The notes beneath the pieces are model-generated. The model did no database searches. It had not been told where the DNA came from and worked only from the letters and a program-made list of their open reading frames with translations. From Candidatus Acidiferrales bacterium (GTDB taxonomy: Bacteria > Acidobacteriota > Terriglobia > Acidiferrales > UBA7541): DNA of 64,000 bases. The DNA lies in NCBI GenBank assembly GCA_035934015.1, contig DASYYH010000011.1, positions 372,001-436,000 on the forward strand. The letters are read 5' to 3'. Of the stretch, positions 36,388 to 41,223 are shown piece by piece (the first letter of the stretch is position 1; the number at the start of each line of letters is the position of its first letter). The position numbers and the translations under genes are program-made.

Positions 36388-36463
36388 GTGAGCGTAGCTC
36401 AGTTGGTAGAGCATCGGTCTGTGGCACCGAACGTCGTGGGTTCAAATCCCATCGCTCACCCCA
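36388..36463 (+). tRNA. tRNA-His (GUG)
   Basis: A 76-nt cloverleaf with the extra 5' G(-1) opposite C73 and an encoded CCA. Acceptor stem GTGAGCG/CGCTCAC. Anticodon loop CTGTGGC gives GTG. T-arm GTGGGTTCAAATCCCAT. An integrase remnant ends 7 nt beyond its 3' end. Confidence 0.95.
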
Positions 36464-37152: not shown

Positions 37153-38082
37153 ATGACTGATGCCGCGAACCGGAAAGCTATGCGAGAAACGCGAGACGCA
37201 AATTGCGTTCGGATAGGCCCCGCAGGATGGTCGTACTCGGATTGGGCTGGAATCGTATATCCAGCGCCTCGGCCAAACGGATTCCACGAAGCGACGTACC
37301 TTGCCGAATTTTTCGACACAATCGAGATCAACACATCCTTCTATCAACCATTACGACCTGAGCATTGCCGGCAATGGATTGAACAGGTCAACTCGAATTC
37401 CCATTTTCTCTTCACAGCAAAGCTCTGGCGGAAGTTTACTCACCAAGACAAAACGACTGGCGAAGACGAGAAAGCTGTTCGCGCAGGTTTCGATGTATTG
37501 CGCGATGCGGGGAAACTTGGCGCGATACTGCTGCAATTCCCTTTTTCGTTTCACAATACACATGAGAATCTCGCTCGTTTGAAGCAACTTATCAAGACTT
37601 TCAAAGAATATCCGCTCGTTGTCGAGGTACGGCACTCATCGTGGACGAAAAGAGAATTCTACGAACTGTTGCAGGAATACCGCGTCGGATTCTGTAACAT
37701 AGATCAGCCGATCATCGGACGTTCAATCAAACCAAGCGAGCAGGCCACGTCAGCTATCGGGTATGTACGTCTGCATGGACGCCGTTACGATACGTGGTTC
37801 AGCGATGATCCAACTACTCCATCGGAAGAACGGTATAACTACCTTTACTCAGAAGCGGAACTCGAACCGTGGACGGAGCGCATTCGTTCCGTGGCCAGCC
37901 ATGCGAAAACCACTTTTGTCGTTACGAACAATCACTATCAGGGGAAAGGCGTGGTGAACGCGCTGCAACTCATCCATTTGCTCACAGGCGCGAAGGTAAA
38001 AGTACCGGAACCACTTCGCAAAGACTACCCTGACCTTGACAGTATTGCCGACGTACCGCCGAAAAATCCGACGCTTTTCTAA
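37153..38082 (+). CDS. DUF72 (YecE-like) protein
   Basis: A protein of about 309 aa with the DUF72 TIM-barrel signature: IGPAGWSYSDWAGIVYP near the start, YLAEFFDTIEINTSFYQPL, FTAKLWRKFTH, LGAILLQFPFSF, PLVVEVRHSSW, GYVRLHGRRYDTW and the C-terminal TFVVTNNHYQGKGVVNALQL. No reaction is established for the family. Catalytic roles have been guessed from its barrel fold. It is the first of four same-strand genes leading to the polymerase, 53 nt before the RecA-like gene. ATG 37153 is preferred to a TTG at 37105; ribosome sites are weak at both. Confidence 0.85.
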   Translation: MTDAANRKAMRETRDANCVRIGPAGWSYSDWAGIVYPAPRPNGFHEATYLAEFFDTIEINTSFYQPLRPEHCRQWIEQVNSNSHFLFTAKLWRKFTHQDKTTGEDEKAVRAGFDVLRDAGKLGAILLQFPFSFHNTHENLARLKQLIKTFKEYPLVVEVRHSSWTKREFYELLQEYRVGFCNIDQPIIGRSIKPSEQATSAIGYVRLHGRRYDTWFSDDPTTPSEERYNYLYSEAELEPWTERIRSVASHAKTTFVVTNNHYQGKGVVNALQLIHLLTGAKVKVPEPLRKDYPDLDSIADVPPKNPTLF

Positions 38083-38135
38083 GTATTTGACTTTCGCTTT
38101 TTATTCGTCTACTATCGTTCCGCATAGAGCGCCGC

Positions 38136-38750
38136 ATGTTTTCAGCCGTCCTGCAAATCGAGCCAGATTTTCATACGAAGCCGTGGACGCTTCCAGTACG
38201 CGGAGTGGCCCTTTTTTACGGATGCCCGCAAGTCCCACGGTTATCACATTATTTTTTGCCACGTGCGATCACGGAAGGTAAGCAGGTGCTCTATCTGGAT
38301 GGCGCAAATCAATTTGATCCGCTATTGCTTGCCCGTCTTGCTCGGCAGCGTGGATGTCTACCGTCAGAATTCGACAGCCGCGTTCGGATTGCTCGCGCCT
38401 TTACCTGCTTTCAGCTAACCGAGTTGCTCGTTCGTGTACCCCGTTTGCTACACACCTTTCCTGCCGATGTTGTGATTCTCACAGCCATGCCGGAACTGTA
38501 TTTCGATGAAGACGTGAGGGAAGCGGAAGCCATTGCGTCTTTTCACCGAGGACTACATGCGCTGCAACAACTGGCAGGCCGTTTGCCTCTCGCAATATTT
38601 TCCGATCCGTCCTCGTTCGCTACCCCGCGACGAAAACTTTTCGAGAACATGAAGGCATATGCTGGGCAAGTATGGAAATTCATCGAGCATGAGAACAGCG
38701 CGCTCACTATTAGCAATGAAAAAGCCACCTTGCTCCCTATGAGGGATTAA
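38136..38750 (+). CDS. RecA/RadA-like protein lacking Walker A
   Basis: A 204-aa protein. The expected P-loop position reads GVALFYGCPQVPRLSHYFLP, with no GxxxxGK[T/S]. The next elements resemble RecA/RadA-type cores: VLYLDGANQFDPLLLARLARQRG (strand plus helix), RIARAFTCFQLTELLVR, and PADVVILTAMPELYFDEDVREAEAIASFHRGLHAL in the Walker-B-like position. It ends with a short beta-rich tail. I read it as a shortened, probably non-hydrolysing RecA paralogue, analogous in design to ImuA of bacterial mutasomes. Remote homology only. It is 53 nt after DUF72 and 3 nt before the next gene. Confidence 0.55.
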   Translation: MFSAVLQIEPDFHTKPWTLPVRGVALFYGCPQVPRLSHYFLPRAITEGKQVLYLDGANQFDPLLLARLARQRGCLPSEFDSRVRIARAFTCFQLTELLVRVPRLLHTFPADVVILTAMPELYFDEDVREAEAIASFHRGLHALQQLAGRLPLAIFSDPSSFATPRRKLFENMKAYAGQVWKFIEHENSALTISNEKATLLPMRD

Positions 38751-38753
38751 ATA

Positions 38754-39107
38754 ATGGGCCGTACCGTCCCCACTTTCGCCCAGCTTCTCGAACAAACCGC
38801 TCAACGATGGGCGAAGTTTCGCCGCGCATTACGGCAGGAAGATCAGAAACATTTCGACCATCTTTTTTTACGCGCTCGCTGTTACACCCAAGCGGCTACG
38901 TATCAATGCAACGACAATCCGATGGAAGCGATTCTATTGTCTATCGTACTCGATCAAGAAAAGCGCCTCTCGGCACTGGAAAAACTATTCGATGGCAAGA
39001 GGAACGGCGATGCAACTCGAAGGCTGGATATTCGATCTCTACCCGTGCTCACAGGGAATGACGTTGTGGCTTCTGACTCCGAATCAGACCGCGCACAAAC
39101 TGATTGA
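38754..39107 (+). CDS. Small hypothetical protein of the PolB cassette
   Basis: A 117-aa protein I do not recognise. The first 85 residues look all-helical: FAQLLEQTAQRWAKFRRALRQEDQKHFDHLFLRARCYTQAATYQ and NPMEAILLSIVLDQEKRLSALEKLFD. The tail is polar. ATG 38754 follows the RecA-like stop by 3 nt and has GAGGG 8 nt upstream. Its last 98 nt overlap the polymerase start (39010), so translation of the two is linked. A small adaptor between the RecA-like protein and the polymerase is a reasonable guess. Confidence 0.65.
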   Translation: MGRTVPTFAQLLEQTAQRWAKFRRALRQEDQKHFDHLFLRARCYTQAATYQCNDNPMEAILLSIVLDQEKRLSALEKLFDGKRNGDATRRLDIRSLPVLTGNDVVASDSESDRAQTD

Positions 39108-41223
39108 CGCCTCGTTTCGGCCCGCATTCTACGTTCACGCGCAAGAGCCAACTCTGCTACAACTCGCTCATCTGCTGACATCTCAGTTTCGCGTCGAATG
39201 CAATCGAGTGGAGCGCGTGGACATCTGGCAGGGGAAATCGATCCGCGTGCTCGAAGTATCTGTCTGTGATCCTCTATGCTTCCGTGCTGCTGCGGGAGTA
39301 GTTCAGCGCGCAAATAAGGAGGCTCGTCTTTACGATTCAGACTTGATGTTAGCAACGCTCTACTGTTGGGAGAAAAACGTTTTTCCATTGGCGCGTGTGG
39401 CGGTGGAAACGAACCACGAAGGCAGAATTCTTTCGCTCACTTGCGGCGACGATCCGTGGACGTTCGATTATGAACTTCCACCGCTGCGTATCATGCAAAT
39501 GCGCCTTGCCGGACTCTCACGCGTCAATCCGTCGCATGGCCGCCGTGGAGAACTCGAAATCGAAGCAGATGGCGAGACACACGTGCTTGATGATGCCGAC
39601 ATACCGACTGCGGAAAATCTAGCGCGTCTTGTGAAGCAGTACGATCCTGACGTGCTACTGACAGATTGGGGCGATTCAACCATCCTACCCTTGTTGCTCC
39701 GTCAGGCCGAACAGTATCGAATCCCGCTCGAATTGAACCGCGATCGCGATGCAACAATCGGTCGCAGCCGCTCCCGCAGTTTTATGAGTTGCGGGCGAAT
39801 CCTGTTCAAAGAATCGGCCACTACGCTTTTTGGCCGTTTGCACGTGGACTCCTCAAATTCATTCATGGCAAGCAAATGTGAACTCGCCGGACTGTGGGAA
39901 TTTGCGCGAATCACGAAGTTGCCCGTTCAATACGCCACGAGAACGACCGCTGGGACAGGCATTTCTTATATGCAAATGGAACTGGCGTGGCACGATGGCG
40001 TGCTAATCCCCGCGCAGAAAGCTGAACCAGAGGATTTGAAATCGCCCGATGAATTGCTCGTTGCCGACCGTGGCGGACTCGTATTCACGCCGAAACTGGG
40101 ATTTTTCGAAAACGTCGCGGAACTGGATTTTGTGAGTGAATATCCGTCCATCATGGCGCGATTTAACATTTCGCCAGAAACAGTGAATTGCCCATGCTGT
40201 CCAGATGCCTCTCGCGTGCCCGAACTCGGCTATCGCATCTGCCAAAAGCGGTCAGGCATTACCAGCCGCGTCGTTGCCCGGCTCATTGAGCGGCGCGTGG
40301 AATTGAAAAGGCTGATGCGCCAAGCGCCCGCCGATTCCATTCAGCGATACAGGTTGCAGCGTGAGTCTTTGAAATGGCTGTTGGTTTGTTGCTTCGGCTA
40401 TACGGGCTACAAAAATGCACGCTTCGGAAAAATCGAAGCGCACGAAGCCATCAATGCTGTGGCGCGAGAGACACTGCTTCTTGCGAAAGAAATCGCTGAA
40501 AGTCGCGGTTTCGAGTTGATTCATGCTCTAGTGGACTCGCTCTATGTCAGGAAAGAACGCGCCAGCCGTGCGGATTACGAACGACTTGCCTGTGAGATCG
40601 AGGGCCGCACGGGACTTCCATTAGCAATAGAAGCAATCTATCGCTATGTAGTGTTTCTCCCGTCTCGGCAATATGCAGATGTTCCCGTTTCGAATCGTTT
40701 CTTCGCTGTCAGTGAGAGTGGCGAACTGAAAATTAGGGGTCTCGAATGCCGCCGCCATGACACGCCGCCGCTGATTGCACGAATGCAGCAGGAAATTTTG
40801 GCAATTTTGGCCGAGGCCCACGACTACGACAGTTATCGCCAAAAGCTCGATATTTGCCGCATCATTTTCAGTTGCTATCAGGAAAGACTTACGAGCGGCG
40901 ATGTCGCTATCGAAGAATTAGTTGTGAGCAAGAGGATGACACGCGAGCCGCGAGACTACAGCAAAGCGAACCTCACAGCAATTGCCGCGCAGCAGTTGTA
41001 TGGGAATGGCGTAAAGCTCCGGCCCGGTCAGAATATCGAGTACGTCATAACAAATGTTCGTGCCGCTGTACCTAACGACCGCGTGCGTGCTTATGCGTTG
41101 TGGGAAGGATGGCGTGGCTACGACCGAGAAAAATATCGTGACATGCTCTGCGAAGCGTTTCAATCCTTCGACGAATCGTTGCGCAAACATCCATTATTGG
41201 CGCACTCGAATCAGTTTTCCTGA
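39010..41223 (+). CDS. Family-B DNA polymerase with altered catalytic motifs
   Basis: A 737-aa polymerase. Motif A is DFVSEYPSIMARFN (Asp about 373). Motif B is KWLLVCCFGYTGYKNARFG (about 455), where the usual KxxxNSxYG has Val, Cys and Phe at the Asn, Ser and Tyr places. Motif C is HALVDSLYV (about 505-513), keeping the second Asp of YGDTDS but losing the first. The thumb element KIRGLECRRHD is intact. In the exonuclease region the Exo I DxE is not found; Exo II may be LTDWGDSTILP and Exo III FGRLHVDSSNSF. Bacterial replicative Pol II is about 780 aa. Low fidelity or loss of proofreading is likely. The start is chosen by AGAGGA 7 nt upstream. Confidence 0.85.
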   Translation: MQLEGWIFDLYPCSQGMTLWLLTPNQTAHKLIDASFRPAFYVHAQEPTLLQLAHLLTSQFRVECNRVERVDIWQGKSIRVLEVSVCDPLCFRAAAGVVQRANKEARLYDSDLMLATLYCWEKNVFPLARVAVETNHEGRILSLTCGDDPWTFDYELPPLRIMQMRLAGLSRVNPSHGRRGELEIEADGETHVLDDADIPTAENLARLVKQYDPDVLLTDWGDSTILPLLLRQAEQYRIPLELNRDRDATIGRSRSRSFMSCGRILFKESATTLFGRLHVDSSNSFMASKCELAGLWEFARITKLPVQYATRTTAGTGISYMQMELAWHDGVLIPAQKAEPEDLKSPDELLVADRGGLVFTPKLGFFENVAELDFVSEYPSIMARFNISPETVNCPCCPDASRVPELGYRICQKRSGITSRVVARLIERRVELKRLMRQAPADSIQRYRLQRESLKWLLVCCFGYTGYKNARFGKIEAHEAINAVARETLLLAKEIAESRGFELIHALVDSLYVRKERASRADYERLACEIEGRTGLPLAIEAIYRYVVFLPSRQYADVPVSNRFFAVSESGELKIRGLECRRHDTPPLIARMQQEILAILAEAHDYDSYRQKLDICRIIFSCYQERLTSGDVAIEELVVSKRMTREPRDYSKANLTAIAAQQLYGNGVKLRPGQNIEYVITNVRAAVPNDRVRAYALWEGWRGYDREKYRDMLCEAFQSFDESLRKHPLLAHSNQFS

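Follow-up and report, generated by a model that had tools for sequence, protein, structure and literature searches.

Operons that encode the B-family polymerase PolB2 together with an inactive RadA-like protein (iRadA) and the small protein PPB2 have been described in archaea and in bacteria (PMC4104785, PMC11791011, PMC12926913). This PolB2 mutasome was reported in both domains in 2014 (PMC4104785), and in 2025 it was modelled as a heteropentamer of one PolB2, one iRadA and three PPB2 subunits (1:1:3) in a study that also described a D(K/R) motif in PolB2 and noted nearby DUF72 genes and their enrichment (PMC11791011). An archaeal PolB2 homologue is active as an extender in translesion synthesis (PMC8764526, PMC11791011). 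A literature search for the term rvPolB retrieved no paper. Acidobacteriota are abundant soil bacteria whose damage-induced mutagenesis has been little studied, and a LexA box of Acidobacterium capsulatum has been linked to alphaproteobacterial lexA, according to a title cited in PMC3323433 and PMC7739468.

The window analysed here, a 64,000-nt stretch of a Candidatus Acidiferrales genome, contains four consecutive genes and one promoter-like element:

37153-38082, + strand: DUF72 gene (PF01904, TIM-barrel family; Pfam E 9e-56), an optional operon neighbour
38087-38115, + strand: promoter-like TTGACT-17-TACTAT with a LexA-type direct-repeat box, TTCGCTTTTTATTCGTCTA, at 38093-38111
38136-38750, + strand: iRadA, 204 aa, with a Rad51/RadA ATPase-domain fold but no N-terminal domain and no Walker A motif
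38754-39107, + strand: PPB2 (arCOG07300 type), 117 aa, helical, with an MGRT start
39010-41223, + strand: PolB2, 737 aa, in a reading frame open from 38992, with motif C LVD and the D(K/R) motif ADRGG (residues 353-354)

All four open reading frames were confirmed on the forward strand in the order DUF72, 204-aa protein, 117-aa protein and PolB, and their coordinates bear out the head-to-tail arrangement given in a preliminary description, with spacers of 53 and 3 nt and then an overlap. PolB2 most likely starts at the ATG at 39010, because the sequence AAGAGGA lies just upstream and the start aligns with those of its relatives. This start produces a 98-nt overlap with the PPB2 gene (39010-39107), which is also kept in many relatives. 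The same DNA encodes the PolB2 sequence GWILDLYP and the MDSRSLP-like tail of PPB2, which only seems to be conserved in its own right.

Gene order, the MGRT start of PPB2, the LVD and D(K/R) motifs of PolB2 and the Rad51/RadA fold without Walker A identify the three downstream genes as a bacterial PolB2 mutasome operon of archaeal origin, and the locus carries nearly all testable hallmarks of this known type. It is no new type of cassette. The preliminary description had proposed a parallel to the ImuA-ImuB-DnaE2 mutasome; the locus does combine a polymerase of the Dpo2/PolB2 kind with an inactive RecA-superfamily partner, but that parallel has already been published.

PolB2 is patchily distributed, being present in 18 of 61 related genomes, and iRadA and PPB2 lie directly upstream in nearly all of those whose contig extends that far. 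The recurrence of the block argues against a chance association of the three genes. A wider scan recovered 80 bacterial PolB2 loci from Acidobacteriota, Chloroflexota, Nitrospirota, Elusimicrobiota, Bacteroidota/Ignavibacteria, Thermodesulfobacteriota and other phyla, with the trio in nearly all loci having enough flanking sequence, and in many loci of Nitrospirota, Elusimicrobiota and Thermodesulfobacteriota lexA is found immediately 5' of iRadA. A Haladaptatus plasmid encodes Cdc6-iRadA-PPB2-PolB2 with the V/MGRT and ADRGG motifs. In a phylogeny of PolB2, Acidobacteriota sequences cluster in a single supported clade, where the polymerase of the window is placed beside that of a Candidatus Acidiferrales MAG. 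Two metagenome-assembled genomes (JABCYZ01, CALMZO01) have multiple PolB2 operons, with sets of two (L087, L101) and three (L107, L124, L125). An 854-aa open reading frame (L030/L093; PKXT01000273, 3-2564) fuses iRadA to PolB2 from about residue 60 and is missing PPB2; it is either a natural fusion or an assembly chimera, and another contig (L035) carries a further copy, which includes iRadA and PPB2.

A tRNA-His gene (36388-36463) is located just upstream of the four genes, and the MerR-TPR and tRNA-His synteny is kept in a sister genome that lacks PolB2, which indicates that the site is variable. A mobile-element insertion at this tRNA was considered and rejected, as no element could be defined and neither a copy of the tRNA 3' end nor a convincing flanking direct repeat was found.

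The 53-nt gap between the DUF72 gene and iRadA holds the promoter-like hexamers, with TTCGCTTTTTATTCG between them. The box in this element is a direct repeat, TTCG-N7-TTCG, common to the lexA and recA genes of the genome and to nearly all Acidobacteriota iRadA genes examined. It occupies the same position in the lexA promoter (TTCGCCTTTGCTTCG) as in the window, and the recA promoter reads TTTGCTTTTTGTTCG. No palindromic SOS box was found. When scored with a matrix built solely from 14 lexA promoters of this genome and its relatives, the window site ranks first in the 64 kb, with 27.4 bits compared to a maximum of 21.6 bits in 200 random windows. In each of the 16 family loci whose upstream DNA is intact, a site just 5' of iRadA likewise comes first. 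The matrix was constructed after the repeat had already been spotted in the window, lexA and recA, so the window site by itself is not a blind test, whereas the other genomes are. In the wider set, 19 of the 20 Acidobacteriota loci whose upstream sequence exceeds 1.3 kb have the box, the exception (L089) retaining no more than a fragment of a broken iRadA, and it was seen in no locus among the 58 from other phyla. A pattern search, by which the SOS regulon was sampled, matched the core exactly at only four places in the 3.37-Mb genome; lexA and this operon account for two of them, and the recA copy departs from the core at one position. Because the box is common to lexA, recA and the Acidobacteriota iRadA genes, the trio is probably SOS-controlled, although the strong promoter shape that iRadA has in common with lexA might conceivably be a feature unrelated to LexA. 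In addition, two tandem LexA-type boxes (G000:C6:183123-183172; L069, L073) are located 5' of a response-regulator-like gene beginning MRSPSDINILIVDDDG, a candidate SOS gene.

The position of the predicted SOS promoter, which begins downstream of the DUF72 gene, bears on the status of the fourth gene, which the preliminary description had counted as part of the cassette. The closest solved relative of the DUF72 protein is TM1631 (1vpq, E 1e-34). DUF72 may be a working fourth component, for example a nuclease or a lesion-processing enzyme acting with PolB2, and several observations speak for this possible but doubtful reading. In 8 of the 18 PolB2-bearing genomes (G000, G003, G007, G012, G029, G034, G038 and G053), a DUF72 gene is found no more than about 9 kb from PolB2, even though these genomes encode only about two DUF72 genes each, so that by a rough estimate the linkage would be far above that of random placement. 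The linked gene is upstream of PolB2 in some genomes and downstream in others, the order DUF72-iRadA-PPB2-PolB2 appears again in Ignavibacteria (L146, L156), linkage changes state at least eight times along the PolB2 tree, and the published enrichment (PMC11791011) points in the same direction. On the other side, DUF72 is away from PolB2 in the remaining PolB2-bearing genomes, the same subfamily is also found unlinked in genomes lacking PolB2, one locus (L032) has a DUF72 of a different subfamily, and in the window the gene is upstream of the predicted SOS-type promoter. Distribution and tree rule out DUF72 as a fixed part of the operon; of the proposed four-gene neighbourhood, the trio thus recurs and DUF72 is a separate, favoured neighbour.

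The PolB reading frame matched PF00136 (DNA_pol_B, E 3e-27), and with Pfam matches considered to E 1 this polymerase domain stood alone, with no exonuclease family among the matches. NCBIfam assigned it to NF004416 (E 4e-117), with Pol II models at 8e-20 or weaker, and its profile matched Pyrococcus/Thermococcus-type polymerases at E 8e-72 compared to E 1e-17 for Escherichia coli Pol II. By sequence, the polymerase groups with archaeal-type B polymerases, and a haloarchaeal PolB2 shares 31% identity with it (E 2e-81). The changed catalytic motifs described previously are indeed present (A, ELDFVSEYPS; B, KWLLVCCFGY; C, HALVDS). They could indicate a catalytically dead polymerase with a role limited to regulating or scaffolding repair, as the first Asp of the motif C DxD and the Asn of motif B are replaced in all 14 aligned PolB2 sequences. 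However, Asp373 of motif A and Asp509, the second Asp of motif C, are invariant in the same alignment, and archaeal PolB2 with a like substitution is active (PMC11791011, PMC8764526), which makes a dead enzyme improbable. Since the archaeal homologue is active, the "altered" motifs should, by analogy, not be taken as a sign of inactivity. Ahead of the palm, D353 of ADRGG is invariant and R354 nearly so, fitting the D(K/R) motif of PolB2, and ADRGG is found in haloarchaeal PolB2 as well.

The 204-aa protein lacks Walker A, as stated in the preliminary description, and so do its 13 aligned relatives; a GxPxxxRL-like sequence stands in place of GxxxxGK[ST] in all 14. Pfam gave only a sub-threshold Rad51 match (E 0.002), and a profile search matched RadA (E 1.6e-9). 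Structure prediction (pLDDT 88) recovered the expected RecA-superfamily fold, matching the ATPase domains of Rad51, RadA and Dmc1 with Z scores of 18-20 across about 180 residues. The missing Walker A motif and the fold and profile matches identify the protein as a RadA/Rad51-like iRadA, which retains the Rad51/RadA core and has lost the N-terminal domain and the ATPase motifs. That it is instead a true ImuA, descended from bacterial RecA and taken on as a partner by a B-family polymerase, is very improbable, since the loss of Walker motifs and the operon role recall ImuA1/ImuA2 (PMC12926913) but sequence profile and fold favour RadA/Rad51/Dmc1, haloarchaea carry the trio in the same order, and ImuB and DnaE2 were not found in the genome. 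An identity as ImuA is unsupported, and the likeness to ImuA is one of analogy. No obvious beta-clamp motif was seen at the C-terminus of PolB2 or iRadA in the window, which weighs against the mutasome reading; the iRadA of L040 (11148-11789, minus strand) ends in RQLRLFQ, which resembles a beta-clamp-binding motif.

The MGRT start is invariant in all 14 aligned PPB2 sequences, and the PPB2 profile also finds the haloarchaeal proteins (E 1e-25). The structure model consists of helices only (pLDDT 72), and a fold search of the PDB with this model found nothing above Z 4.7; the published resemblance to sigma factors was thus not recovered.

Taken together, the locus is very probably a PolB2 mutasome operon assembling a TLS complex and repressed by LexA via the box, with DUF72 as a separate gene. 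From the observed anatomy, family membership, conservation and common box, we infer that the three proteins form a complex, that it is active in TLS, and that the operon is bound by LexA and inducible. In this mechanism, LexA would most likely repress the Acidobacteriota operon through the TTCG-N7-TTCG box in the promoter just 5' of iRadA, and DNA damage would induce it. The three proteins would then assemble into a proofreading-deficient translesion polymerase, in which iRadA is a dead RadA-like subunit docked on PolB2, the MGRT arm of PPB2 enters the cleft between the two, and PolB2 may extend primer ends that are mispaired or lesion-blocked.

In the genome we found one LexA, one RecA, one C-family polymerase (DnaE) and one Y-family polymerase whose active site is DinB-like. 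ImuB and DnaE2 went undetected in this assembly, which is 98.6% complete, so PolB2 may be the genome's sole mutasome. A broader scenario, in which Acidobacteriota without ImuB-DnaE2 have wired the archaeal-derived trio into the SOS response via a clade-specific LexA box, use it as their only mutasome and recruited DUF72 as a lesion-processing partner, is speculative and seems unlikely in its entirety. The common box predicts bacterial SOS control of an archaeal-type B-family mutasome, and suggests two routes to LexA control, with lexA within the operon in Nitrospirota and others or a box ahead of it in Acidobacteriota.

Compared to E. coli Pol II (PolB), the polymerase described here is also of the B family and has in common a general link to SOS and TLS, but its profile matches archaeal B-family structures far better than it matches Pol II. 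With ImuA-ImuB-DnaE2 the operon has in common an inactive recombinase homologue, an error-prone polymerase and an SOS context; it differs in its RadA-like rather than RecA-type partner and its B-family rather than C-family polymerase, it has no ImuB, and PPB2 has no counterpart in that system. As far as the box is represented in PMC3323433 and PMC7739468, the A. capsulatum/alphaproteobacterial GTTC-N7-GTTC and the box found here have in common an 11-bp direct repeat containing TTC, whereas the flanking letters differ (here TTCGC-N6-TTCGC(CTA)). The closest likeness is to the Dpo2 operon of S. islandicus and its bacterial homologues, which likewise feature the MGRT arm, the substituted DxD, the D(K/R) motif, an inactive RadA-like partner and a nearby DUF72, with the same gene order in bacteria. 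Unlike in these known mutasomes, DUF72 is directly upstream here, lexA is located elsewhere, and a LexA-type box is found inside the operon's own promoter, which is a new, if modest, addition to a known system.
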